From positions 1 to 43,898 of the forward strand of contig JAJRCF010000023.1 of NCBI GenBank assembly GCA_028679075.1: a DNA stretch of 43,898 nt, read 5' to 3'. This document shows positions 9,594 to 28,457 of the stretch, in pieces (the first letter of the stretch is position 1; each line of letters opens with the position of its first letter). The position numbers and the translations under genes were made by a program. The notes beneath the pieces were generated by a model. That model was not told where the DNA came from and ran no database searches. It worked only from the letters and a program-made list of their open reading frames with translations. The stretch is from Methanoregula sp. Lineage in GTDB: Archaea; Halobacteriota; Methanomicrobia; Methanomicrobiales; Methanospirillaceae.

Positions 9594-10343
9594 ATGCTGA
9601 CTTTTATCGGGCTCGGGCTCTTTGATAAAACCGATGTCTCTGAGAAGGGGCTCCGTCTCATCAGGTCTGCGGACCGGGTCTTCCTCGAATGCTACACCTC
9701 GCGTCTCGGGGGCACGACCCGCGAGGAACTCGAGACGTTCTATGGGAAACCGGTCACCCCCCTCTTCCGGGACGATGTCGAGCAGCACCCGGATGAACTG
9801 CTCGCGGAGGCCAAGCTGAAAGATGTCGTCTTCCTCTGCGCCGGAGACCCCATGGTCTCGACCACCCACGCGGACCTCCGGATGCGGGCCGCTGCCCGGG
9901 GGATAAAGACGGCGATCGTGCATGCGGCATCCATATCGAGTGCTGTCTGCGGCCTCTCCGGCCTCCAGAACTACCGGTTCGGGAAGTCCTGTTCGCTCCC
10001 GTTCCCGCAGAAGAACTGGTTCCCGACAACGCCTCTCGATGTCATCCTCCAGAACCTCTCGCTCCGTCTCCATACCCTCGTCTTCCTCGATATCCAGGAA
10101 GAGCGGTACATGACGGTACCCGAAGCAGTCGGCCTCCTTGAACAGATGGCCGGGCAACGGAAGGCAGAGATCCCGCTCTACGTGGGTATCGCCCGGGCAG
10201 GGTCCGGCGAACCGGTGGTCCGGGCCGGTACGGCTGACGCGATCCGGGCGGTGGATTTCGGCCCACCGCTCCACATCCTCATCATCCCGGCGGAACTGCA
10301 CGATATGGAGCGCGAATACCTGGAGGTATTTGCCGGCCTATGA
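9594..10343 (+). CDS. dphB: Diphthine synthase
   Basis: This 249-residue S-adenosylmethionine-dependent methyltransferase makes diphthine on the conserved His of elongation factor 2, the methylation stage of diphthamide synthesis. It has the tetrapyrrole-methylase fold seen in Dph5: [11 protein letters not shown] at the N-terminus, [28 protein letters not shown] (the SAM-binding GDP motif) and a [11 protein letters not shown] segment. Length is typical for the archaeal enzyme. Its stop overlaps the DUF357 gene start by four bases (ATGA), so the two are co-translated. Confidence 0.95.
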
Positions 10344-10921
10344 ACCTCCACGAATGCCAGGCCCTGCTTGCAGGATCTCTCTCTGGCACGCGGTGCAGTG
10401 GCCCTGAGGGATCGCCCCACTGGCACACCGGGCAGTCGGTGCTCCGGATGGCATCTGCATACGAGAGCGATGGCAGGACATTCATGACCGGAGGGGACCC
10501 GGTCAACGCACTGGCCGCATTCCTGTACGGACTCGGGTGGCTGCACTGCGGGATCGCATCCGGTCTCCTTGTCCGCCAGGAGGCCCGGGACATATGCCCG
10601 TTTACCGGGACGTTTGAACGTGTACCGGCGGACCAGAGCGCCAAACTTGACGAGAAAACGGGGAGGTATGCACACCTGCTGACCACCGCCATCGACTCTG
10701 TTTCAACAGCCCCGTATCGTGGGACACCCGCACATGCATTTGCCGTGCAGGTCTGTTTTATCGCCGGGGTCTACCTGGCCCGGGGGAACCGGGTAGCAGC
10801 CAGCGGGAAACCTGAGGAAGCACTGGCCTGCTTCAGTTACGGTCACGGGTGGATCGATGCCGGGGTCCAGGCCGGGCTCCTCTCCATCCATGCACACCAC
10901 GAGATCTTCACGGTCGATTAA
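10340..10921 (+). CDS. DUF357-type helical protein
   Basis: The protein is 193 residues and mostly helical, with two related segments. Residues about 45-75 ([20 protein letters not shown]) and 145-185 ([20 protein letters not shown], then DAGVQAGLL) share the G-D/K-P-x-x-A-L-A-x-F-x-Y-G-x-G-W pattern of archaeal DUF357 proteins, which points to an internal duplication. No catalytic motif is visible. It is translationally coupled to dphB. Function is unknown. Confidence 0.75.
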
Positions 10922-11026
10922 GACGGGTTGCACCCCGGAATTCCCTGAATAAAAAGGTATATACTATGCCCCATAACCTGTTAAGATAACAGCCGCTGCC
11001 ATGGAGACAGCCGGAGAGTTTGAGCA

Positions 11027-12058
11027 ATGGATAAATCACAGGTCAAATGGCTTTACATTTCCGTGGGTTTCTCCCTTGCCGTCCTCATCATCATCCTCTT
11101 TTTTACCATCAACGAGAACACCATCACCTACCTGCAGGAGATCAACCCCTGGTTCCTCCTCCTCGCCTTCCTCACCCACCTGCTGACCATGTGTTTCTGG
11201 GCAATGCGGGTCAAGATGATGTCCGGTTCGCTTTCATATCGCATCGGGTTCTGGTACAGCCTGAACCTTGTCTTTGCCAACCTGCTCGCTTCCGCGATCA
11301 CGCCGGCCCAGGCCGGGGGTGAGCCGGTCAGGGTCCACGAGCTCTATAAGGCAAACGTCCCCCTCGGCGATGCAACTGCAATCGTGATCATGGAGCGGGT
11401 GCTTGACGGCATTGCCCTTGCAGGGCTTGCGGCGTTCTCCATGATCGTCCTGACCGACCAGTGGAAACAGCTCGGGACGGTCTCCGAGATCATGGTCGTG
11501 GTCACCTGGATCTTCGTTGCAGGGTGCCTCTTCCTCTTCTACCTCGCCATCCGTCGCCCCGACGTAGTGAAAAGGGTGGTGAACCGCTGTACGATCTGGC
11601 TGACAAAGACCTGGGAGAACAGCCGGGTCGAGGCACTCCTGGTCCGTGCGGACAAGGAGATCGACAACTTTCAGGGTGCGACACTCCGGTTTGTCCATAC
11701 CGCCAAGGGGGGCCTTGCCTGGGGGATGCTCTTTACGCTCCTCTACTGGGTCTCGGAGATCCTTACGGCCTCCCTTATCCTTGTCGGGCTCGGCCAGGAC
11801 CCCCTGGTCCTCGAATCATTCGTGATCCAGCTCATCCTCGCGATCCTGATGATGATCCCGCTCACCCCGGGCAGTTCGGGCATTGCCGAAGTCGGGGCTA
11901 CGTCCATGTACGCCCTGTTCCTGCCGGCGGGGGTTGTGGGGATCTTTGTCGTCCTCTGGCGTATCGTCCTCTATTACTTCAATATCGCGCTCGGGATCCT
12001 CTCCAGCATCATCATCGTGCGCCGGGAAGCCCGGAGCTGCCTTGACGAGAAGGCCTGA
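11027..12058 (+). CDS. Flippase-like integral membrane protein (UPF0104 / LPG synthase TM family)
   Basis: This 343-residue protein has about eight hydrophobic segments. It belongs with the lysylphosphatidylglycerol-synthase transmembrane family: SAITPAQAGGEPVRVHEL (residues 87-104) is the family hallmark, followed by IVIMERVLDG and near the C-terminus MMIPLTPGSSGIAEVG. In archaea and bacteria such proteins are proposed to move or modify lipid-linked glycans (AglD-like neighbourhoods). The soluble synthase domain is absent, as is normal for this short form. A TATA-like box (GGTATATAC near 10958) gives it its own promoter. Substrate unknown. Confidence 0.85.
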   Translation: MDKSQVKWLYISVGFSLAVLIIILFFTINENTITYLQEINPWFLLLAFLTHLLTMCFWAMRVKMMSGSLSYRIGFWYSLNLVFANLLASAITPAQAGGEPVRVHELYKANVPLGDATAIVIMERVLDGIALAGLAAFSMIVLTDQWKQLGTVSEIMVVVTWIFVAGCLFLFYLAIRRPDVVKRVVNRCTIWLTKTWENSRVEALLVRADKEIDNFQGATLRFVHTAKGGLAWGMLFTLLYWVSEILTASLILVGLGQDPLVLESFVIQLILAILMMIPLTPGSSGIAEVGATSMYALFLPAGVVGIFVVLWRIVLYYFNIALGILSSIIIVRREARSCLDEKA

Positions 12059-12104
12059 CCACCTGAACGCTTATCAGCGATAACGGCAATCACTGTGCAC
12101 AGGC

Positions 12105-12557
12105 ATGACACAGGTCAGGTGCGAGGTCAAAGGCGTCTTCATGGCCACCAGCGACACGGCCACTGTCCCCCTTGTGATACTCTCGGACAGCAATGGCCGC
12201 CTCCTGCCGATATTCATCGGCATCTGGGAAGCCGTCTCCATCAACAGTGCCCGGAACAGGGAGGTGCTCCCCCGTCCGTTCACCCACGACCTCTTCCTCG
12301 ACCTGTGCGAGAAGTTCTCGATCACCCTGCGGTCCCTGCAGGTTGACAGCATTGAAGACGGGATCTATTACGCCCAGCTCGTCTTTGTCAACAACAAGCA
12401 CGAGGAATTCCTTGACTGCCGCCCGAGTGATGGTATCGCGCTGGCACTCAGGGGGGATGTCCCGATCTTTGTAGAAGAGAGCGTGCTTGCAACCTCCGCA
12501 CAGAAGACCGAGGACCTGCCGCAGATCGTAGATCTTACGTCTTTCCTTCAGAAGTAA
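12105..12557 (+). CDS. DUF151 / bifunctional nuclease family protein
   Basis: This 150-residue protein matches the DUF151 (BFN) domain across its length: LVILSDSNGRLLPIFIG near the start, the helix following INSARN, DSIEDGIYYAQLVF, and the conserved CRPSDGIALALR (residues about 107-118). In plants and some bacteria the family has nuclease or stress-related roles; in archaea the function is unproven. It stands alone, convergent with hisE, with only 7 bases between stop codons. Confidence 0.85.
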   Translation: MTQVRCEVKGVFMATSDTATVPLVILSDSNGRLLPIFIGIWEAVSINSARNREVLPRPFTHDLFLDLCEKFSITLRSLQVDSIEDGIYYAQLVFVNNKHEEFLDCRPSDGIALALRGDVPIFVEESVLATSAQKTEDLPQIVDLTSFLQK

Positions 12558-12564
12558 AACAGGA

Positions 12565-12867
12565 TTATTTCCTGCGGTGCTCCAGCTCTGCCATCACATC
12601 GGACAGGTCAACACCCGCTGCCCGGAGGGCGACAAGCATATGGAAGAGGAGGTCCGCCGCTTCACTCGCGGTACGCCCGGGGACCTTGTTCTTCACCGCA
12701 AGGATGAACTCGGTCGACTCCTCGCCCACTTTCTCCAGCACCTTGTCGATCCCTTTCTCATCGCTCATCAGGCGGGTCGTATAGGACCCCTCCTTCGGGT
12801 TATCGGCACGGTCGCAGATCACGGCCCAGAGCTCCGCAATGATCTTCGGATCGGCTGTTGGTTTCAT
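12565..12867 (-). CDS. hisE: Phosphoribosyl-ATP pyrophosphohydrolase
   Basis: This 100-residue enzyme hydrolyses phosphoribosyl-ATP to phosphoribosyl-AMP, the second step of histidine synthesis. It shows the MazG-like helical metal-binding pattern: GSYTTRL, KVLEKVGEESTEFILA and EAADLLFHMLVALRAAG. The start is the ATG at 12865-12867, which shares one base with the stop of the upstream nusA-like gene (TGATG). Longer in-frame extensions would run through nusA and are rejected. No other his gene is in the window. Confidence 0.93.
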   Translation of the reverse strand: MKPTADPKIIAELWAVICDRADNPKEGSYTTRLMSDEKGIDKVLEKVGEESTEFILAVKNKVPGRTASEAADLLFHMLVALRAAGVDLSDVMAELEHRRK

Positions 12868-13307
12868 CAGGCTTCCTTCTCCAGCAGTACTTCTCCGACT
12901 TCGATACCGTAAAACCTTCTGCAGAGTATGCGCGCCTTCTCGATGTTGCACCCGGCCTTGCCGATGGCAATTCCAAGGTCACTCCTCTGCCGGACAAGCA
13001 CGTTCACCGGCCCGTTCTCCGCAGTCCGGTCAACACCGGTGACTTCGGCGGGCTTGAAGATATTGGCGATGAATGCATCGGGTGTATCGGCAAATTCAAC
13101 CATCTCGATCCGTTTGCCAAGCACGTTCTGGAGCCTCCGGATGTTCTCGCCCTTTTTCCCGATTGCGAGCCCCATATCTCCCTGCCGGACCACGTAGATC
13201 ACCCGGTCAAAACGCTCGTCAATCACGCAGTCAAGCGCCGTGGACTTGGTAAGAATCCGCAGTTCCTCAATATACCTTCGCTCCTTAAAACCGATATTGC
13301 GCTCCAT
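12867..13307 (-). CDS. nusA: Archaeal NusA-like KH-domain RNA-binding protein
   Basis: The 146 residues form two KH domains. The first has GDMGLAIGKKGENIRRLQ (the G-x-x-G loop is GKKG) and the second has SDLGIAIGKAGCNIEKAR (GKAG). This is the compact archaeal NusA: two KH domains without the bacterial N-terminal RNAP-binding or S1 domains. It would bind RNA during transcription. In many archaea nusA sits in the RNA polymerase-ribosomal operon. Here it is paired with hisE, which may be lineage rearrangement or a second paralogue. The ATG at 13305-13307 is clear. Confidence 0.9.
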   Translation of the reverse strand: MERNIGFKERRYIEELRILTKSTALDCVIDERFDRVIYVVRQGDMGLAIGKKGENIRRLQNVLGKRIEMVEFADTPDAFIANIFKPAEVTGVDRTAENGPVNVLVRQRSDLGIAIGKAGCNIEKARILCRRFYGIEVGEVLLEKEA

Positions 13308-13470
13308 GGTAAAATCAATCCTATTGTATCCGCTGATTCTGGATATTCGAAATTTGATATCTGGACAGCCCCAGGAAAACCCGGTCCCGTTACAGTGAAT
13401 TTATGAAATGATCACACTGCTATTTTAAAAAAGTTGTGAAGAGAGTACGGGAACAATAAAAAAGGTGAGA

Positions 13471-14208
13471 TTAGGTGTAGGTATAGGTGACCGATACCTG
13501 TGCAGTCACGGTGATATCACCGGACTGGATGGGGGTAGCGACAGCGGATTTGGCTCCCATTGCGGAGTCCGCCTGGTAGTTTGAATACGCTACCGGCATG
13601 TAGCCCTGGTAGATGTTGACATTCCCCGTGCCGGTGATATTGACACCCATTGCTCCGGCCACGGCCTCTGCATCAGCACGGGCATTTGCCACTGCCTTTT
13701 TCAAGGCCTCGCTGCGGAGCGCAAGGGACTGCGCATCGGAAAGCATGAACTGGATGGAGTCTGCCTGGTTGACACCATTTGCGACAGCGATATCAATTAC
13801 TTCCCCGGTCCTGCTCACATCATGGAGCGTGACAGTCAGGGTGTTGGTTACCCGGTACGCCTTGACCTTGGGGTTCAGGATGCCGCTGGAGTAATCCTCG
13901 TACACCGTGTAGATGTTATATCCGGTGGTTTTAAGAGCGTCCCTGGGTATACCAGCCGCAACAAGGGCATCGATCACCTTGGTCATCTTAACGGCGTTGT
14001 CTGCCTGCGCAACCTTCACATCAGCATTCTCGGTCTGGACGGAGAACGTGACCTGGGCACGGTCAGGTGTGCCGATCACGTTGCCGCTGCCGGAGGCCTG
14101 GATCACTTTATCCGTCATCGAATCAGCCGATGCAGCGGAGACGCTGCCAACAGTTGCTATCATGAAGATAGCAGCAAGGGCCAGAAGGATTGGAAGTCTT
14201 CTTATCAT
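13471..14208 (-). CDS. Secreted SIMPL-domain (DUF541) protein
   Basis: This 245-residue protein has a Sec signal peptide (residues about 1-25: basic start RR, hydrophobic core ILLALAAIFMIATVGSV, then SAASA). The rest is a SIMPL/DUF541 domain: IQASGSGNVIGTPDRAQVTF, DALKTTGYNIYTVYEDY, YRVTNTLTVTLHDV, and the long helix with EALKKAVANARADAEAVAGA. Family members are periplasmic or surface proteins of poorly defined role, some with stress phenotypes. It is monocistronic and divergent from the leuCDB-type operon. A T-rich stretch follows the stop (complement of about 13457-13464). Confidence 0.9.
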   Translation of the reverse strand: MIRRLPILLALAAIFMIATVGSVSAASADSMTDKVIQASGSGNVIGTPDRAQVTFSVQTENADVKVAQADNAVKMTKVIDALVAAGIPRDALKTTGYNIYTVYEDYSSGILNPKVKAYRVTNTLTVTLHDVSRTGEVIDIAVANGVNQADSIQFMLSDAQSLALRSEALKKAVANARADAEAVAGAMGVNITGTGNVNIYQGYMPVAYSNYQADSAMGAKSAVATPIQSGDITVTAQVSVTYTYT

Positions 14209-19126: not shown

Positions 19127-19537
19127 TCAGACAGCCACGCTGATCGTCTGCTGGCCTTCTGCCGCCCTGCGGAACCTGGCTGCAGGGGTCTCCGGTATCT
19201 TGACAATCGCAACGGAACGCTCCTTTCCGTAGATCACGGCACGGAGCATGGAGAGGGAGAGGGTGAAATTCCCGGCCTCGAACAGGTCGATATTCAGGGC
19301 TTTTCCTGACGCAGAGACATGGGCAAGGCCCCGGGTCAGGCCAAGATACTCATTCCAGTTACGGGTGAGTTCCTCGACCTGCACGTACATACGTCCCGAG
19401 ACCGCTTTCACGAGATCGGATTTCCGGATTGCATACCTGTTCCCGAGAATATGCAGTTCGACAATATCATGTGACACGCCATCGCCGTCAAGGGCCCGGG
19501 CCCTTGTCTGCTGGAGATATCCTGCTTTTTCCATCAT
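19127..19537 (-). CDS. Hypothetical 136-residue protein downstream of the nitrogenase-like genes
   Basis: I do not recognise this family. The first ~25 residues are polar. The middle reads ELHILGNRYAIRKSDLVKAV and later YLGLTRGLAHVSASGKALNI, then a beta-like end with RSVAIVKIPE. There is no signal peptide, membrane segment or cysteine motif. The frame stays open far upstream (to 20056), but that part runs across the NifD-like gene and has no coding character. The start is the double ATG at 19532-19537 behind AAGGTGG. A TATA-like sequence (about 19579-19590) gives it its own promoter. It lies 128 bases after the NifD-like stop on the same strand, so a functional link is possible but unproven. 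Confidence 0.65.
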   Translation of the reverse strand: MMEKAGYLQQTRARALDGDGVSHDIVELHILGNRYAIRKSDLVKAVSGRMYVQVEELTRNWNEYLGLTRGLAHVSASGKALNIDLFEAGNFTLSLSMLRAVIYGKERSVAIVKIPETPAARFRRAAEGQQTISVAV

Positions 19538-19665
19538 ACACGACCACCTTCTGTCGTATACTGGCGTTGCAGCAGAGAGTATATAACCTCCCGGCGTGTG
19601 CAGGGTGAAAGTGATCTGCCGTCGGAGATTGTGGGGGACATCCATCCCCGCGTAATAAAAATGGC

Positions 19666-20787
19666 CTATGGTTTTTTGTTCATGCAGGCATTCAGCACCT
19701 GTTCGATGAACGAGAGCGTGCCGTTCGTACCGGCGATAGGGGACGGGAACAACCGGATACTCCCCCGGAGGGGAGGGATGATCCCCACGAAGGCTGCATT
19801 GCCGCACACGGAACGTTCGAACGATGACCCGATGACGAGATCGGGGGAATGGGCACTGATCAGGTCTCGTACCTGGGAAAGGCCGGCCACCCGGGCAACC
19901 GGAAACGTCGTGTCGCATTCGCTGTTGCGTGAACCAATGCTGCAAATCTCCGCATCGAGGTACTGGTTCAGCACCCGGGCTGCAAACGTGGCATACGAGC
20001 ACCCCCCGAATACCGCAGCAACCGGGGGATCGTACCGGTGCAGGTACTTGTCGCATGCCTGCACGACCCGTTCTTCCTGATGATCCAGTTCTGCCAGGAC
20101 GGGACCGATGTCAGATCCATCGATAACCTCACCGATCCGGGTAAACGTCTCACGGACCGCGTCAAATCCCAGCATCCCGCCAAGATACTCACCTGTTCCC
20201 GATGCAAAATCCCCGTTTGTACCAATCGTATACGGTGCAGCACGGTGCACATTTTCGAGACGGTCCTGGCAGAATATGGTACCCACCGGGACAGATGCCA
20301 TCCTGAACAGCCGTACCATCTCCTGCACGTTGCCCGCTGAGAACGGGTCAAACATGCACACCCCGTCGATATTCACGCCACAGGAACCCGGATCGGTACG
20401 GGGTTCCAGTATAGCCAGGGCCTTGGCATACCCGGTCTCGATATCCCCGGAAAAGCCCGGGCTGTCGACAAGGATCACATCATGGCCTTCGAGCATGGAA
20501 CGGATATCCTCACCAAGAATGGCAGGCACGCAGGTGGTGATCACCGCGATCCTCTTTCCCGTCTTCGAGAGCCCGCCGATCACTTCCAGGAGCCGGTCCT
20601 CCGACCCGAAGATCACCTCGTTCTCAAGAATGAACGTGCCGTGAAGCGGGGCATGGAGGAGCGTTGTGGGATAATAATAGCACCCGCTTGATCCATGGAT
20701 GACCACCGCTATCCCATCAAACCCCGCAAGACAGGCCGCAGCACCGGTCATGGCACAGGGCCAGAGCGGGTTGTCGCACTCAGGCAT
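19666..20787 (-). CDS. Nitrogenase component 1-like protein, D-type subunit
   Basis: This 373-residue protein belongs to the nitrogenase/protochlorophyllide reductase/CfbD superfamily. Three cysteines sit where the family binds its intersubunit Fe-S cluster: Cys11 (NPLWPCAMTGA), Cys36 (VVIHGSSGCYYY) and Cys86 (VITTCVPAILGEDI). A C-terminal Rossmann-like part (VAAVFGGCSYATFAARVL, DLVIGSSFERSV) is retained. It is far shorter than NifD (about 480-500). I see no counterpart of the FeMo-cofactor Cys and His ligands, so nitrogen fixation is unlikely. Its start overlaps the K-type gene by 8 bases. It differs in motif from CfbD as I know it (family text such as AAMYTLRDL and MHGPSGCCFR). The reaction is unknown. 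Confidence 0.8.
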   Translation of the reverse strand: MPECDNPLWPCAMTGAAACLAGFDGIAVVIHGSSGCYYYPTTLLHAPLHGTFILENEVIFGSEDRLLEVIGGLSKTGKRIAVITTCVPAILGEDIRSMLEGHDVILVDSPGFSGDIETGYAKALAILEPRTDPGSCGVNIDGVCMFDPFSAGNVQEMVRLFRMASVPVGTIFCQDRLENVHRAAPYTIGTNGDFASGTGEYLGGMLGFDAVRETFTRIGEVIDGSDIGPVLAELDHQEERVVQACDKYLHRYDPPVAAVFGGCSYATFAARVLNQYLDAEICSIGSRNSECDTTFPVARVAGLSQVRDLISAHSPDLVIGSSFERSVCGNAAFVGIIPPLRGSIRLFPSPIAGTNGTLSFIEQVLNACMNKKP

Positions 20788-21820
20788 GGGTTGCCCGCCT
20801 CCAGCGGTGGAGCATCCGTCGCGTCCCGGCAGTCCCTACCGCAGCGCTGACGGGCAGGCGGACAGGGTGCCCCGTTTCACCCGGCGTGAAGCCCAGTGCC
20901 CGGGCCAGTTCTTCGGCGGCACGGATATCTTCCGGCCCGGAAAGGGAGGGATCGAGTGCGGCCCGGGACTGACGGAGATCGGTAAACCCGGCAATCAACT
21001 CCTCTTGCCGGGCACGTTCCCCTTCTGTCGCCCCCTTCCCGTCAATACCGCAGCACTCCGCAACCGATGCGATGAAGGAGAGCGTGTCCGAGAGACCGTG
21101 GGGGAATGACGGGAGGAAGGGCGTCCCAAACCGGTCCTTAAGATACTCCCCTACCGGGACAAGTGACGGGCTGCGGAGGATATTGAGCTGTGCCGCACCA
21201 AGCGCGGATATCCGGTCGTACGTGATATCATGGATAAAACGCAGGTTCACATGAAGGCCGAGCAGGGAGAGGAGCCGTGCGATCTCCGCATAGTTCTCGT
21301 CGATCTCATATTCGAGGTTCATCTCCCCGATGATATTCACCCCGGCGGACCTCCGGCAGGGCCCGGCAGTCCCCGCGAGGGCAATGAGGGCATTATTCAC
21401 CCCGTCCTGGAATGTCCCCCCAAGAAAACCTGCCGTGGGAACCGGTATGACCGGAATGCCGTATTCCTCCGAACACACGGCTTCGACATCGTCACCGATC
21501 GTCTCGACAATACAGGTCGAGAGCACAAAGACGGCCCGGGAATTCCGGCCTGCAGCCTTCGCGATAGCCTGCCGGAGGGCTGCCTCACCACCGAAGATAA
21601 CCTCGGTCTCAGACAACCCGGTCGAGACCAGTTCTGGCAGGAGGGCACGGTCGTTGTCAAGCCAGGTCGCGTGCAGTAACGACGCGTTATGGTGGCTGCA
21701 CCCCTTCGGGCCGTGCACGACCGTGACTGCGTCTCGGATATGGGAGGTCACCGATATGGCCCCGGTAAGGGTACAGCCTCCGAGCCTAGAAGAATTCACG
21801 GGCAAGGGATTCAAGCTCAT
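20780..21820 (-). CDS. Nitrogenase component 1-like protein, K-type subunit with shortened C-terminus
   Basis: This 346-residue protein is a second, different component 1-type subunit. The three conserved cysteines are Cys16 ([10 protein letters not shown]), Cys41 ([12 protein letters not shown]) and Cys103 ([16 protein letters not shown]). GVNIIGEMN and [16 protein letters not shown] mark the central domain. After about residue 300 the expected third Rossmann domain is not recognisable; the protein ends in a basic tail (RRMLHRWRR). Paired with the D-type protein it could form a heterodimer with a six-cysteine cluster site. The ATG at 21818-21820 is used; a TTG start nine bases upstream is less likely. 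It overlaps the NifH-like gene by 35 bases. Confidence 0.8.
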
Positions 21821-22598
21821 CGATCTCAAGAGGGGTGGGGATGGTTAACCGGGTATTTTCCATGATACGCTGTGCGAGGGTGCGGTAGTGACCCGCCTGG
21901 GCCGAGTCCGGGCGGTATTCGATCACGGTCTGCCGGTTCACTTCGGCTTCCTGAACGACATGGTCGCGGGGAATATACATCACCATGGCACTGTTCACCC
22001 GGCGGGCGAACTCGGTCACCAATTCTTCTTCCCGCGGCTGGCCTTTTGCATTGCAGATCACGCCGGCAAGCCGGCACTTGCTCTTCACCCGGGACGAGAG
22101 CCTCTGGACGGCCTTGCAGATATTGTTGGCTGCGTACAGGGACATCAGTTCACCGGAAGTGACAAGGTAGATCTCCTGTGCATAGCCTTCCCGCATCGGC
22201 ATTGCAAACCCGCCGCAGACCACGTCCCCGAGCACGTCGTAGACGATGACATCGCCTTCAAGGGCCCCGAATTTCTCGAGCAGCTGGAAGGTGGCGATGA
22301 TCCCGCGTCCCGCACAGCCGACACCGGGCTCGGGCCCTCCCGCCTCCACGCAGCGGACACCGTTGTAACCGGTAAAGACTACATCAGAGAGTGAGACTCC
22401 CTCATTGCCACGTTCCCGTACAAGATCCATGACGGTCGGGATGAACCGGCCCTGCATCAGCATCCGGGTGCTGTCCCGCTTGGGGTCGCAGCCGATCTGC
22501 ATGACCGAGACACCCCTGCCGGAGAGTGCTGCCGAGAGGTTGGCAGAAGTGGTGGACTTCCCGATCCCGCCTTTCCCGTACAGGGCGATCTGTTTCAT
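21786..22598 (-). CDS. NifH/BchL/CfbC-type ATP-dependent Fe-S reductase
   Basis: This ~270-residue protein would transfer electrons to the component 1-like subunits with ATP hydrolysis. Walker A is GKGGIGKST (residues 8-16). The 4Fe-4S ligands between two monomers are Cys95 (GVGCAGRG) and Cys128 ([12 protein letters not shown]). The Arg in CAGRG, the ADP-ribosylated residue in NifH, is present. [10 protein letters not shown] follows the usual switch segment. The ATG at 22596-22598 precedes [11 protein letters not shown] and has no ribosome-binding site, but a TATA box lies about 25 bases upstream, so a leaderless message is likely. It is the first gene of the nitrogenase-like cluster. It could be mistaken for nifH or cfbC by similarity. 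Confidence 0.9.
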
Positions 22599-22616
22599 TG
22601 GCGTACAATGGGGCGG

Positions 22617-22628
22617 CAATTTATATTA
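22617..22628 (-). promoter_or_regulatory. TATA box of the nitrogenase-like operon
   Basis: Read on the minus strand the sequence is TAATATAAATTG. Its centre is about 25 bases from the NifH-like ATG, which puts the transcription start at or beside the start codon. An imperfect dyad (GTTAAC-AAAA-GTAAAC, 22640-22655) lies just upstream and could be an operator. Confidence 0.6.
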
Positions 22629-22743
22629 GATCTCCTGATGTTAACAAAAGTAAACTTGTGTTGGGCCGGCATCAGATGGCAGGACAATGGACGGAGAACC
22701 TCCACAACGGGATCAATCAGAGGATATTTAGGGAGCAGGGATC

Positions 22744-23128: not shown

Positions 23129-24586
23129 TTATTCAGGGCCACGGATCAAGGCCAGAAACAGGATCACGACCGGGATCACTTCCAGCCTCCCGATCCACAT
23201 CACCAGGATAAAGATCCATTTCGATATCACCGGCATATCCGGGGAGACATACCCGGTATTGATGCCGCAGGTGGCGAATGCGGAGACCACCTGGAAGACA
23301 ATTTCCGTCAGGGAGAACGTGGTCAGGTGGTACTGGAGCACCGCGAGGGAGGCGACAAAGACGATGACAACCGACAGGAGGATCACGAGCATGTTCTTTG
23401 CAGTCTCCAGCTCCGCGGTCGCCTTCGGGATCACCCTCCCCGCGATCTTGAACGGTACAAGAACCTTCCCGCTCACGTACAACCGCTGGAACCACCACAT
23501 GAGAGCCCGGATCGCAAATGCAACCCGGTCAAGCTTGATCCCCCCGGCCGTGCTTCCGGTCGCGCCGCCGATGAAGGTGAGCATGGCAAGGAAAAGCAGG
23601 GTGACACCGGCCCAGCTCTGGAGATCCACGATCTGGAAGCCGGTGCTCGTCAGGGCGGATACCGCCATGAAGAGCCCCTGCCAGAGTGCCTGTACCATGT
23701 CAAGATCGGAGAAGAAAATCAGGTCATAGGCCAGCACGGCAGTTCCCGCAGCAAGGAAAACAAAGAACAATTTGACCTGCTTGTCGCCAAAGAAGCTCCA
23801 GCGGTGGTGTTCCAGGATCAGGAAATAGAGTTTGAACGGAAGGGCACCGGCGATCATGATGGGGATGAGCATGATCTCAAGCGCAATGCTGTCGTAGTAG
23901 AGGACACCCCCCTCGTGCAGCGTGAACCCCCCGGTCGAGATCGTCGAGAGGGCGAGGTTGACCGATTCCCAGAGCGATAACCCGGTGAACAGGATGAGCC
24001 CGATGGCACAGAACGTGAGGACCGCATAAATTTTCCAGAGCGCCCGGCCGGCCGCAACAATACCGGGCATCAGGGGCTCTTCCCGGCTCTCGTTCCGGAA
24101 GATCTTTGACCGGAACAGCCCCGTATTGCTGGCAAGGGCGACGCTGAACGCAATGATACCGATACCCCCAACCCACTGCATGTAGGAACGCCAGAAGAGG
24201 AGCGTGAAGGGAGCGGTATCCAGCGAGCGGATCATGGAGAACGCAGTGCCGGTCCAGCCGGCCATGCCTTCGAAGACCGCATCGGTAAAACTCATGTGCA
24301 GGCCCAGCATGAACGGGATGCCGCTCACCATGGCACAGGCAAACCAGACCAGTGCCACCGAGCACATGGCCGTGGAGAGCCGGTTGCCCTTACCGCTGCG
24401 GGGAAGTTTTTTGAGGGCGATACCGGTAATAAAAAAGATGGCCGGTACGGTTGCCATGGGCAGGAGCATGTCCCACTCGGAGAAGAGGACCGCAATGATC
24501 AGGGGGACGCAGGTCACCGGGGCGACAAAGGTGAAGATATCACCGAGATCCGCGATGATCGTGGAGAGATACCCGAGCCGGCCCAT
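23129..24586 (-). CDS. trkH: TrkH-family potassium transporter subunit
   Basis: This ~485-residue membrane protein has four loop-helix repeats with selectivity-filter glycines: GWTGTAFSMI, STGGFTLHE, TSTGFQIVD and ATCGINTGY, in order. GGATGSTAGGIKLDR is the typical TrkH/KtrB segment after the third repeat. It imports potassium together with a cytosolic TrkA/KtrA regulator, which is not in this window. The ATG at 24584-24586 is used; a GTG one codon upstream is equally possible and no ribosome-binding site is visible. It lies downstream of the desulfoferrodoxin gene in the same direction, after a 70-base gap. Confidence 0.92.
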   Translation of the reverse strand: MGRLGYLSTIIADLGDIFTFVAPVTCVPLIIAVLFSEWDMLLPMATVPAIFFITGIALKKLPRSGKGNRLSTAMCSVALVWFACAMVSGIPFMLGLHMSFTDAVFEGMAGWTGTAFSMIRSLDTAPFTLLFWRSYMQWVGGIGIIAFSVALASNTGLFRSKIFRNESREEPLMPGIVAAGRALWKIYAVLTFCAIGLILFTGLSLWESVNLALSTISTGGFTLHEGGVLYYDSIALEIMLIPIMIAGALPFKLYFLILEHHRWSFFGDKQVKLFFVFLAAGTAVLAYDLIFFSDLDMVQALWQGLFMAVSALTSTGFQIVDLQSWAGVTLLFLAMLTFIGGATGSTAGGIKLDRVAFAIRALMWWFQRLYVSGKVLVPFKIAGRVIPKATAELETAKNMLVILLSVVIVFVASLAVLQYHLTTFSLTEIVFQVVSAFATCGINTGYVSPDMPVISKWIFILVMWIGRLEVIPVVILFLALIRGPE

Positions 24587-24658
24587 CACTATTGGGTTGC
24601 CGCTCGTGCTCTATTAGTGTTTGCCCGGTGGCGTGATAAAAAAGGAGGGGGAAGAGGC

Positions 24659-25039
24659 TTAGGCCTTGTCGGTCCAGAGCCCGTGCACATTGCAGTATGC
24701 CCGCACTTTCAGACGGCCATCCGGCACGGTGAACTCCGCTTCTGGTTTCTGCCCGGGTTTCAGTCCCTGCACAAAAAGGGAATCGCCGGAGATTACCTCG
24801 ATCCACTGGATATAGTGTTTCTCCTCCATCGGGTGGGGGATTGCCCCGAGTTTCACCCGGATCCCCTTTTGGGTCTTTTCAACAACGGGCACATGCTTCT
24901 CCTTTCCCGTATCCTCCGTCTTTTCCACCTGGAGGATCATGGGCTGGCCGCAACAGGAGAGGGTACCACCGGAAGGGCTGACCACCATCGTGGTGTTTCC
25001 ACATACGCCGCACTTATAGACTTCGAGCATTTTTGTCAT
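24659..25039 (-). CDS. dfx: Desulfoferrodoxin (superoxide reductase)
   Basis: This ~126-residue protein reduces superoxide to hydrogen peroxide without making oxygen. The N-terminal domain has the desulforedoxin-type site: CGVCG near residue 10 and CCGQ near 30. The C-terminal domain has the Fe(His)4Cys centre pieces HPMEEKHYIQWIEV and YCNVHGLW, plus KHVPVV with the lid Lys/Glu region. The ATG at 25037-25039 follows GTGAGG. It is the last gene of the rubredoxin-FprA-desulfoferrodoxin unit, where rubredoxin is the expected electron donor. Confidence 0.93.
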   Translation of the reverse strand: MTKMLEVYKCGVCGNTTMVVSPSGGTLSCCGQPMILQVEKTEDTGKEKHVPVVEKTQKGIRVKLGAIPHPMEEKHYIQWIEVISGDSLFVQGLKPGQKPEAEFTVPDGRLKVRAYCNVHGLWTDKA

Positions 25040-25054
25040 ATTACGCCTCACGGG

Positions 25055-26239
25055 TTATAAAATACCGATTTCCTTGTGTTTCTTTGCAATATCATCCGCA
25101 AGCCGGTTGAGTGCCACGAGAGCCGCTTCATCCGGCAGTCCCTTAATGACCACCGGTTCAAGGACCTCGACTTTCACATGGTCCAGCATCTTTACGATCG
25201 TCTCGGCAGCTTTGCCCCCCCACCCGAAGGAGCCGATCACCGAGGCAAACCGGACCTTGGGTTTCAGGACATTGGCAAGGTACGTTGCATAGACGATCTG
25301 GGGGTGGGGCCCGAAGAGCACGGTCGGCGTGCCGACCACAACCGTTGCCGCATCGACAAGGGAATACGCCAGTTCTCCGATATCGGTATGCGTGAGGTTG
25401 AAAGGCTTGACATCGACGCCCCGCTGGATGAGCGCTCCGGTGAGGTGGTCGACCATCTTCTGCGTGCTCCCGTGCATGGAGATATACGGCAGGACGACCA
25501 CGTTCTTCACATCATCCGAGACCCAGTCCGCATAGGCATCGAGGATAAATTTCGGATTCCTGTTGACCGGGCCATGACTCGGTGCAATCATGGCAGGGTC
25601 CAGGTCCCTGACCTTCTGGATATACCCCCTGATGCTGTTCCGGAACGGCATCATGATCTCGGCGTAATACCGTTTTGCCGACCGGTAGGCATCGGCCTCG
25701 TTTGTTATGTACAGCTCGCTTGTGGCCTGGTGGAACCCGAAGAGGTCGCAGGGAAAGAGGATCTTATCCTCGACAAGGAACGTGATCTGCGTCTCCGGCC
25801 AGTGAGTCCACGGGGTCAGGAAGAACCGGAGGGTCCGGTCTCCCAGGGAGAGCGTATCCCCGTCCTTTACCACCATCACGGACTCCGGAGCAATCTGCAG
25901 GAGGGCGACGAGGAGATCGCGGCACTTCTCGTTCGTCACCACCTTTGCCCGGGGGTACATCTCGAGGACCATGGGCAGGGAACCCGCATGGTCCTGCTCG
26001 GCATGGTTGATGACGATGTAATCGATCTGCTCGATACCGAGTTTGATGAGGTTGACGATCAGCTCCTCTTCCTTCTTCGGGTCAACGGTGTCGATCAGGG
26101 CGGTCTTTGTGCTCCCGCGGATAAGATACGAATTATAACTCGTCCCTTCCGGGAGCGGGATCAACTCGTCAAAGAGCCGCCGGTCAAAATCCAGCGCCCC
26201 GACCCAGCAGATCCCCTTTGCGATTTCACGTGCAGCCAT
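25055..26239 (-). CDS. fprA: A-type flavoprotein FprA (F420H2 oxidase type)
   Basis: This 394-residue protein has an N-terminal metallo-beta-lactamase-like diiron domain, with HAEQDHAG (H-x-E-x-D-H) near residue 80, then TPWTHWPE, PCDLFGFH and SHGPV for the remaining ligands. A C-terminal flavodoxin domain begins near residue 250 (VVVLPYISMHGSTQKMVDHL). In methanogens this protein uses reduced F420 to reduce oxygen to water. Related flavodiiron proteins reduce nitric oxide. The stop lies 15 bases before the desulfoferrodoxin ATG and the start is 6 bases after the rubredoxin stop. Confidence 0.94.
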   Translation of the reverse strand: MAAREIAKGICWVGALDFDRRLFDELIPLPEGTSYNSYLIRGSTKTALIDTVDPKKEEELIVNLIKLGIEQIDYIVINHAEQDHAGSLPMVLEMYPRAKVVTNEKCRDLLVALLQIAPESVMVVKDGDTLSLGDRTLRFFLTPWTHWPETQITFLVEDKILFPCDLFGFHQATSELYITNEADAYRSAKRYYAEIMMPFRNSIRGYIQKVRDLDPAMIAPSHGPVNRNPKFILDAYADWVSDDVKNVVVLPYISMHGSTQKMVDHLTGALIQRGVDVKPFNLTHTDIGELAYSLVDAATVVVGTPTVLFGPHPQIVYATYLANVLKPKVRFASVIGSFGWGGKAAETIVKMLDHVKVEVLEPVVIKGLPDEAALVALNRLADDIAKKHKEIGIL

Positions 26240-26530: not shown

Positions 26531-27070
26531 TTATCCATCGGGGGAACTCTTGAGGTAGTAACGGTTGACGAAAAAGTTGAATGACTGGTTCTTCCGTGCG
26601 GCCGTTTCAAGGGAGAAGGACTTGAGGATCTCGAACATGAAGTCGATCCGGGAGTCGAATCTTTTTGGGATACGGGCATTGAAATCCTCTTTCGTCAGGT
26701 CGTCCGTAGACGCCATGTCCGTGATGCCCGGTTCGTGCTCAAGGGGCCCGGATATCCCGGCATAATACCAGCTCTCGATCTCCCGGATCACGATCACGAC
26801 GCTGCTGCCATCAAGGTTGCTGAACCGGTAATAGAGGATCTGCTTCTTGTCCCGCACCGAGTGCTCATAATCGATATCGGCAACGAAGATATAGTCGTTC
26901 TTCATCAGGACGACGCTTTGTAAGAACTTATTCACCTTGTCGCGCTTAATGCAGGCATACGGCACGATCTCGACCGAGTCGTACCGGGGAGCAAAGAGGG
27001 GTTTGATGATACGGCCGAAGAACCGAACATCGTCCTCTCCCTCGACCATGATGAACAGGCGTTTCTTCAT
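26531..27070 (-). CDS. TOPRIM-like protein paired with an AAA ATPase
   Basis: This 179-residue protein starts MKKRLFIMVEGEDDVRFFGR, with the conserved Glu (residue 10) of a TOPRIM/DUF4435-like fold. Acidic residues follow at ADIDYE (Asp65, Asp67) and an R-E-I-E motif near residues 96-99, as in the nuclease parts of OLD-type and AriB-like proteins. Metal-dependent nuclease or RNA cleavage activity is plausible but not shown. It begins directly after the stop of the ATPase gene (TGAATG), so the two proteins are almost certainly partners. The call is pattern-based. Confidence 0.6.
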   Translation of the reverse strand: MKKRLFIMVEGEDDVRFFGRIIKPLFAPRYDSVEIVPYACIKRDKVNKFLQSVVLMKNDYIFVADIDYEHSVRDKKQILYYRFSNLDGSSVVIVIREIESWYYAGISGPLEHEPGITDMASTDDLTKEDFNARIPKRFDSRIDFMFEILKSFSLETAARKNQSFNFFVNRYYLKSSPDG

Positions 27071-28336
27071 TCACATTCCCAGCAGGTTCTGGAGGTAGAG
27101 TTCCTCGATACCGATCTCGTTTGCAAGAAATGTCCTGACCTCTTCCTTGTCGGCAGGCCGGGAGACCACGGAATACCCCCCGCTGTCGCGGGAGATCAGC
27201 AGGATATCGTCAAGGGAGGCATGCTTGACAACTTCCGCACTGTGGGTAGTGACCATGATCTGTTTTTTCGCCGAGGCCTCTTTCATCATGCCCAGGATCC
27301 GGGCAACAAGGAACGGGTGGATATGGCCCACCGGTTCCTCGATAATGATGAAAGGCTTGTCCTCAAAATAGAGGGCGATGATCAGGGCAAAGATGATGAT
27401 GGTGCCGTCCGAGAGGGATGAGGCAGGCAGGTCCCGGCTCTTTGCATACCGTTCGCGGAGGGTGAGGATGAGCGAGACGTCCATGAATTTCTGCACCGAG
27501 AATTCCTCGACAAAGGGGAGGGTGTCGCGGAGCAGGTTTGAAAATTTGCGCTTCTTCTCCGGGTCATCGATGATCTTCTTTAAGACGAGCGCAAGGTTTC
27601 CGCCATCGCTCTCAAGTTCCCGTTTCCCCGTTATGACTGCCCCTTTCTTCGGCAGTTTCGGATCGATATCGTACACGGCGATCCGGTCGAAAAACCTGTC
27701 GAGATGCGGGAGCGGGAAACCGAAGGCCGTCTCGAGGAGGAGTGTCTTTTCCGGGAGGTGGTGGTTGCGGAAGAAGATCGGTATGATCTCATCCTGCGTG
27801 AGCGGGCACCCTTCAGGGATCCGGACCGCGTAGTGGATCGCACCATTCTCGTTCGAGACCTCGATCTCTCCCCTGCCGATCAGGGTGTCCCCGACAACCG
27901 ATGCCCCCTCCCGCCGGCAGGACGAGACCTCGCAGCCGATCCGGAGCCGGTCCCGGGTGATCGTAAATTCATCCGCCTTCCCGCTGAACCGGAGGGCAAA
28001 TTCATACGTGGACTCGCAGGCCTTCATCCCGAGGAAGGACGGGGCACCGGAAGTGGTCTCGACAACGTCCATTACGGTGTCCGGAATGTAACTGACCCGG
28101 ATGACGAGGTCACGTGTGCTGCCGATCTGTGCATTCATGAGGTACTCCGCACCTCCCTGCATCGCAATGGCGTTTACTACCCCGTTCGTTGCGATATCAC
28201 GCAGGAACCGGAAGATGCTGATGAAATTGGATTTTCCCGCAGCATTCGACCCGATCACGACATTGAACCGGGCAAGGTCGACATCGAGCTCGGAAAAACT
28301 CTTGAAATTTTCCACATGGATCTGCTGGATCGGCAT
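27071..28336 (-). CDS. AAA ATPase of the OLD/RecF-like class
   Basis: This ~421-residue ABC/SMC-type ATPase has Walker A GSNAAGKSN (residues about 29-37), signature-like SSLSDGTIIIFAL, Walker B FIIIEEPVGHIHP and an H-loop VTTHSAEVV. It opens with IQQIHVENFKSFSEL, typical of AAA_21/RecF-like proteins in which long middle insertions replace the coiled coil. An AAGGAG sequence sits 5 bases before the ATG at 28334-28336; a GTG two codons upstream would overlap that site. With the TOPRIM-like partner it resembles split OLD or PARIS-like defence pairs. Confidence 0.8.
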   Translation of the reverse strand: MPIQQIHVENFKSFSELDVDLARFNVVIGSNAAGKSNFISIFRFLRDIATNGVVNAIAMQGGAEYLMNAQIGSTRDLVIRVSYIPDTVMDVVETTSGAPSFLGMKACESTYEFALRFSGKADEFTITRDRLRIGCEVSSCRREGASVVGDTLIGRGEIEVSNENGAIHYAVRIPEGCPLTQDEIIPIFFRNHHLPEKTLLLETAFGFPLPHLDRFFDRIAVYDIDPKLPKKGAVITGKRELESDGGNLALVLKKIIDDPEKKRKFSNLLRDTLPFVEEFSVQKFMDVSLILTLRERYAKSRDLPASSLSDGTIIIFALIIALYFEDKPFIIIEEPVGHIHPFLVARILGMMKEASAKKQIMVTTHSAEVVKHASLDDILLISRDSGGYSVVSRPADKEEVRTFLANEIGIEELYLQNLLGM

Positions 28337-28457
28337 ACGCACTCCTTACGTCATCGTCACCCTTGTACCCAAAGAAGGTATTGGTCTGGGACGGGCAGGC
28401 AAACCCTGCTGCCGTGAAAAACCGGTCCGGCATACCCACGAAACTGCATTAAGAATG

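Follow-up and report, generated by a model that had tools for sequence, protein, structure and literature searches.

A cfbC-overlapping pair of nitrogenase-like genes in Methanoregula and its possible role as a second client of the F430 reductase

Locus organization

The window analysed here is a 43,898-nucleotide stretch of Methanoregula sp. DNA (contig JAJRCF010000023.1, assembly GCA_028679075.1), from the order Methanomicrobiales, whose members are major methane producers. On its reverse strand lie three overlapping genes, one for a NifH-type protein, here assigned as cfbC, and two, called gene 1 and gene 2, for proteins resembling the subunits of nitrogenase component 1 (Table 1). The cfbC and gene 1 reading frames overlap by 35 bases, and those of genes 1 and 2 by 8. 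These overlaps, the coordinates, the lengths and cysteines of both component-1-like proteins and the intact NifH-type reductase all agree with a preliminary description of the window, in which the set was read as possibly a new ATP-driven reductase.

Table 1. Features of the cfbC locus in the window
Feature	Coordinates	Strand	Length (residues)	Remarks
cfbC, NifH-type ATPase/reductase subunit	21786-22598	-	270	Walker A from residue 8, Cys95, Cys128
Gene 1, component-1-like, alpha (NifD/NifE) type	20780-21820	-	346	Cys16/41/103; shortened domain III
Gene 2, component-1-like, beta (NifK/CfbD-leaning) type	19666-20787	-	373	Cys11/36/86
Conserved open reading frame, start ATG at 19537	19127-19537	-	136	Neighbour, outside the system

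The NifH-type protein and the F430 genes of the genome

The NifH-type protein scores 366.5 bits on Pfam PF00142 (Fer4_NifH) and 419.4 bits on NF033200 (F430_CfbC), above the curated cut-off of 402, and falls just under the cut-off of the nifH model (394.3 vs 394.35 bits). The two further clear NifH-type proteins of the genome are both under the CfbC cut-off: that on contig C33 passes the nifH model (451 bits) and fails the CfbC model (381 bits), while the NifH-type domain on contig C21, which is fused to a component-1 domain, scores 313 bits. CfbE, CfbD and CfbB are encoded together on contig C1, each above its cut-off, with no cfbC alongside. The window protein is thus the sole CfbC-grade protein found in a genome that has CfbD, CfbE and CfbB, and judged by these curated models it is CfbC. 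Since the assembly is 90% complete, the lack of cfbC elsewhere is likely but not certain. The independence from F430 biosynthesis implied in the preliminary description does not hold, and the lack of any other cfbCD, named there as evidence against a new system, applies by half: another cfbD exists, and another cfbC was not found. The same description had proposed looking for a separate nifHDK. The nifH and nifE genes on contigs C33 and C30 (loci L021 and L022) exceed their cut-offs, and these contigs also hold a NifN-like gene and other component-1 genes; judged by this gene content, the source organism probably fixes nitrogen.

The component-1-like subunits

With 197.6 and 106.6 bits, respectively, on PF00148 (Oxidored_nitro), the gene 1 and gene 2 proteins both belong to the nitrogenase component-1 superfamily. 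Gene 1 scores best on alpha-type NCBIfam models (nifE 124.4 bits, the general alpha model 106, nifD 77.9, nifK 27), whereas the best scores of gene 2 are weak, 41.3 bits on nifK followed by 38.9 on CfbD. The initial labels, "K-type" for gene 1 and "D-type" for gene 2, therefore look swapped. Every curated NCBIfam cut-off is missed by both proteins, including those of nifD (653.6 bits) and nifE (505.1) by gene 1, that of nifK (427.3) by gene 2, that of the CfbD model TIGR03282 (268.4; gene 1 reaches 44.6 bits) by either, and those of BchB, BchN, BchY and BchZ, where the highest score is 64.5 bits against 490.4 for BchB.

Conserved positions were read from matches of at least 200 bits and at least 90% coverage with near-duplicates removed, which left 60 rows for gene 1 and 58 for gene 2, many of them from the genus of the window. 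Cys16/41/103 and Arg216 are invariant in gene 1, as are Cys11/36/86 in gene 2, where Cys4 is also found in 57 of 58 rows. Together the two subunits retain all six cysteines by which nitrogenase binds its P-cluster. At the second of these positions, all 13 gene 2 rows compared have Cys and both ChlB/BchB rows have Asp. The cysteine that binds the FeMo-cofactor (NifD C275 position; Cys in all 10 rows taken as NifD) is replaced by Arg in all 60 gene 1 rows, in line with the earlier remark that no FeMo-cofactor ligands are visible. The L-cluster cysteine is likewise absent, with Arg in the NifE C250 column throughout, while Cys116 is common to gene 1 (59/60) and the rows taken as NifE (6/6).

Structures predicted for gene 1 and gene 2 (mean predicted local distance difference test scores of 82 and 90, respectively) both find dark-operative protochlorophyllide reductase (DPOR; BchNB/ChlNB) as their best match, with other nitrogenase-type chains close behind. 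CfbD was not among the structural matches listed, which has no bearing on its relation in fold. Profile searches of the PDB with alignments A1 and A2, being biased by the Nif rows in them, were not used as evidence.

Phylogeny and a related system on contig C21

A maximum-likelihood tree (IQ-TREE, LG+C20) was built from 87 rows and 373 columns; the rows come from 105 gathered, with those of five loci left out. Reference labels (NifD/K/E/N, ChlN/B, BchY/Z) were assigned by gene order, length and place, with an NCBIfam check for the NifE and NifN-like proteins of the same genome only. Gene 1 (13 rows, 100/100), gene 2 (13 rows, 100/99) and CfbD (11 rows, 100/100) form separate clades, and those of genes 1 and 2 lie apart from all rows labelled Nif, Chl or Bch. 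In this tree, which holds no Mar row (the alignment likewise lacks MarD), neither gene falls in a CfbD or nitrogenase clade. The clades and the missed cut-offs bear out the preliminary view that the set fits no characterised member. The gene 2 side and CfbD are joined weakly (52/76).

Gene 1 has as its sister the component-1 portion of the fusion protein on C21 (95/98), and gene 2 has the partner of that protein (96/80). This C21 system (L020:2693-18997; genes at 10050-13570) consists of a 746-residue NifH–component-1 fusion and a 427-residue BchB-like partner. Its neighbours include a CbiS-like gene and genes resembling cobaltochelatase subunits I and D, none of which reaches its curated cut-off, and further genes read, by eye rather than by family search, as BtuFCD-type transport and CobN-like. 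This gene content suggests a nitrogenase-like system that is linked to tetrapyrroles and as yet uncharacterised; genome G197 (L263) has a fusion and partner of similar type. Dos Santos et al. (2012; PMC3464626) mention fusions of nifH to nifE in archaea, with nifN as the next gene, and also describe Methanocorpusculum labreanum proteins that have two and one cluster cysteines and are encoded next to an ABC transporter; as far as that description goes, it does not match the window pair.

One alternative is that the pair reduces an unrelated small molecule (a sulfur, nitrogen or other compound), in the manner of methylthio-alkane reductase minus its metallocofactor. The complete P-cluster-type cysteine set, as in Nif rows, would suit such an enzyme, and the alignment revealed no substrate-specific motif. 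The cofactor cysteine is absent, however, the C21 sister system adjoins tetrapyrrole-type genes and the partner reductase is CfbC, all of which make this alternative unlikely.

Distribution in Methanomicrobiales

Of the 232 genomes of the order, 205 have a gene 2 match at E ≤ 1e-25; among the 135 with at least 90% completeness and at most 5% contamination, the number is 126. This degree of conservation is more than chance. The nine exceptions, counted from the table of matches, are seven genomes of group g13, G130 and G161; the last also has no NF033200 match at E ≤ 1e-60, so the whole locus is probably missing from its assembly. An even sample of the phylum, comprising 392 genomes, has 82 with a gene 2 match at E ≤ 1e-15, one of them outside the order (28% identity), and the named relatives of gene 1 with top identity are from Methanoregula and other Methanomicrobiales. 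CfbC and CfbD are above cut-off in 199 and 207 of the 232 genomes, respectively. All 31 gene 1 loci of more than 9 kb have cfbC as the immediate same-strand neighbour, with overlapping aligned segments in 30. In 29 of these loci gene 2 comes next, no more than 43 nt on, and in the remaining two it is 2.2 and 5.0 kb distant. G182, of the same genus as the window, has two copies of the pair on separate contigs (C28 and C32).

A NifEN-type scaffold was also considered, in which the heterodimer would hold or mature an [8Fe-9S-C] cluster used by the activation complex of methyl-coenzyme M reductase (MCR), with CfbC as its Fe protein. The top NCBIfam model of gene 1 is nifE, Cys116 is shared with NifE, and that complex has L-type clusters (PMC12176620). 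TIGR03274, taken as Mmp7 from its model name "methan_mark_7", is matched in all 10 genomes searched. These comprise seven genomes with the pair and three without (G130, G197 and G203), so the pair is not needed for the MCR activation complex; replacement of part of this complex by the pair was rejected on the same count. The Arg in the NifE C250 column and the near-confinement of gene 2 to one order, for a complex described from Methanococcus maripaludis (PMC12176620), further argue against this scaffold, which we regard as quite improbable.

Natural losses of the pair

At the corresponding loci of G197, G200 and G203 (g13) and of G130, tblastn finds cfbC (70-73% identity) together with the region of the 136-residue protein and further neighbouring genes, and gives no match to gene 1 or gene 2. 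The 12 g13 genomes have no gene 2 match at E ≤ 1e-25, and their best gene 1 match (1.9e-29) is no stronger than matches to paralogues; 10 of the 12 have an NF033200 match at E ≤ 4e-124, and 10 have CfbD. In G130 and G203, NF033200 has no match at E ≤ 1e-50 other than cfbC. The pattern in these sequences is that of a pair lost as a unit, the reductase apparently being retained for CfbD. A foreign CfbD in g13, considered as seven g13 genomes top the TIGR03282 list, was rejected: CfbD (69-72%) and CfbC (68-73%) are as identical to those of the window genome as is usual in the order. Gene 2 was also not found in the two genomes of g9 (85% and 62% complete). In one of them, G142, the 10-kb flank (L256) of a NifH-type match with 51% identity to the window cfbC has no gene 1 or gene 2 match. 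This NifH-type match (L228; C149:15612-16376) contains one in-frame stop and scores 331 bits on NF033200; as this is under the CfbC cut-off and the genome is 85% complete, G142 was omitted from the synteny argument.

These losses bear on a further alternative, in which the heterodimer would be auxiliary to CfbD, increasing the yield of CfbCD on Ni-sirohydrochlorin a,c-diamide as a helper, a store or another acceptor. The constant adjacency of cfbC (31/31 loci), the CfbD-like subunit lengths and the several genomes with no other NifH match would fit such a role. Both subunits lack the substrate-side motifs of CfbD, however, the pair is dispensable, and the CfbD of g13, where it is absent, stays within the identity range of the order, so we consider an auxiliary role unlikely.

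The flanking genes vary in part among families. The 136-residue protein, which has no Pfam match at E ≤ 0.01, had been counted as a member of the set. Its open reading frame is present, but a similar protein adjoins cfbC at all four loci inspected that lack genes 1 and 2, and it is thus a neighbour rather than a component. Beside cfbC on the other side are TrkH, desulfoferrodoxin and flavodiiron (FprA-type) genes (23129-26239, reverse strand), syntenic in several families; as this synteny is partly present also without the pair, a link to oxygen defence is weak. An AAA_21-type ATPase and a 179-residue partner without Pfam match (26531-28342, reverse strand) are possibly a defence-type pair.

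Proposed function

With its overlapping genes, six P-cluster-type cysteines, missing FeMo-cofactor cysteine and joint absence of genes 1 and 2 where cfbC stayed, the locus is tentatively read, at a little less than an even chance, as a cfbC operon encoding a heteromeric component-1-like protein that acts as a second CfbC acceptor and reduces a likely tetrapyrrole. Using ATP, CfbC would deliver single low-potential electrons both to the CfbD homodimer, for F430, and to the gene 1/gene 2 heterodimer. The latter would take them up at an Fe-S cluster that bridges the subunits, bound by Cys16/41/103 and Cys11/36/86, and would reduce an organic substrate directly, as protochlorophyllide reductase does. 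The most likely substrate is an acidic tetrapyrrole, related either to F430 or to corrinoids, because CfbC belongs to the F430 pathway, the sister system lies among tetrapyrrole-type genes, the metallocofactor cysteine is absent and the nitrogenase cofactor site has a basic residue; residues such as Arg216 could hold it. Since the pair was lost without loss of cfbC or cfbD, modification or repair of F430, or a non-essential tetrapyrrole conversion, is indicated rather than core F430 synthesis. Oxidised F430 (12,13-didehydro-F430) is a possible repair substrate.

Several observations weigh against a second CfbC acceptor of this kind. The sister grouping with C21 rests on long branches and on 18-27% identity; identities to the compared reference rows are 17-27%, so the deeper branching order is not settled. 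A second cfbC could be missing from the incomplete assembly, and cfbC itself is the sole tetrapyrrole gene adjoining genes 1 and 2. The CfbD motifs KKETAY, DEYG and GVPHAI are not conserved in either protein, so the substrate would be bound otherwise than in CfbD, and the six P-type cysteines are closer to Nif rows than to ChlB/BchB or CfbD rows. Both structure models were built on alignments containing Nif rows, and their DPOR-like compactness may reflect small size only. At positions invariant in 55 pair-bearing rows, CfbC has undergone no lineage-wide change after pair loss: none is altered in all g13 rows, and the sole G130 difference, V180I, occurs also in one of five g13 rows. Relaxation of CfbC positions was accordingly rejected, with one V/I change only. 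Among the matches listed, one in-frame stop each is found in gene 2 of G092, G111, G112 and G139 and in gene 1 of G105 and G229, reflecting sequencing errors or decaying genes.

The pair is an unstudied nitrogenase relative, almost order-wide, that seemingly borrows its electron donor from the F430 pathway, possibly for the ATP-driven reduction of a related pigment-like cofactor. Should CfbC serve a second client in nearly all Methanomicrobiales, there would be an unknown branch of F430 metabolism, and one more role of nitrogenase-like enzymes would need explaining. Lineages that lost the pair naturally, g13 and G130, offer a ready comparison of genomes and metabolites. A more specific and rather doubtful proposal is that this order-wide, undescribed acceptor, a P-cluster-type heterodimer without metallocofactor, repairs or remodels F430 (for example, by restoring oxidised F430) or re-reduces F430 in MCR. 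It would then also be a heteromeric offshoot from near the root of the homodimeric CfbD and would illustrate a way for nitrogenase-type heteromers to emerge while sharing the F430 reductase. The pair bears on the origin of heteromeric nitrogenases from homodimeric, CfbD-like ancestors, a subject that PMC12176620 and PMC12552129 address. A gene deletion has been reported in a member of the order, Methanoculleus thermophilus (PMC9081873). The same 2022 paper calls the enzymes behind the known modifications of F430 unknown, and no description of this pair was identified in literature searched mostly at abstract level.

Comparison with known systems

Methylthio-alkane reductase (MarHDK) shares with the window system its heteromeric nature and fold, but uses nitrogenase-type metalloclusters (as outlined in PMC12552129), whereas the window pair has Arg for the cofactor cysteine. 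NifDK and NifEN have in common with it the fold, the six P-cluster-type cysteines and an Fe-protein partner; they differ in that same cofactor cysteine and in the full-length domain III that is shortened in gene 1, and the pair scores far under all their cut-offs. DPOR is the top structural match of both models and similarly has no metallocofactor ligand, although in its B subunit Asp takes the place of the gene 2 Cys, and the pair is far below its cut-off and in a clade of its own. The C21 fusion system is sister to both subunits, but its NifH is fused to the alpha-type subunit whereas the window genes are separate and overlapping, its partner keeps one of the three cluster cysteines, and it lies in a chelatase-like and transport neighbourhood. 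Unlike CfbCD, whose CfbD is a homodimer with two cluster cysteines per subunit, the window pair has two distinct subunits with three each and no CfbD active-site motifs, at 45 and 39 bits against a cut-off of 268. With CfbCD it shares similar subunit lengths, the CfbD of the same genome having 358 residues, and a NifH-type subunit that is CfbC by curated cut-off.

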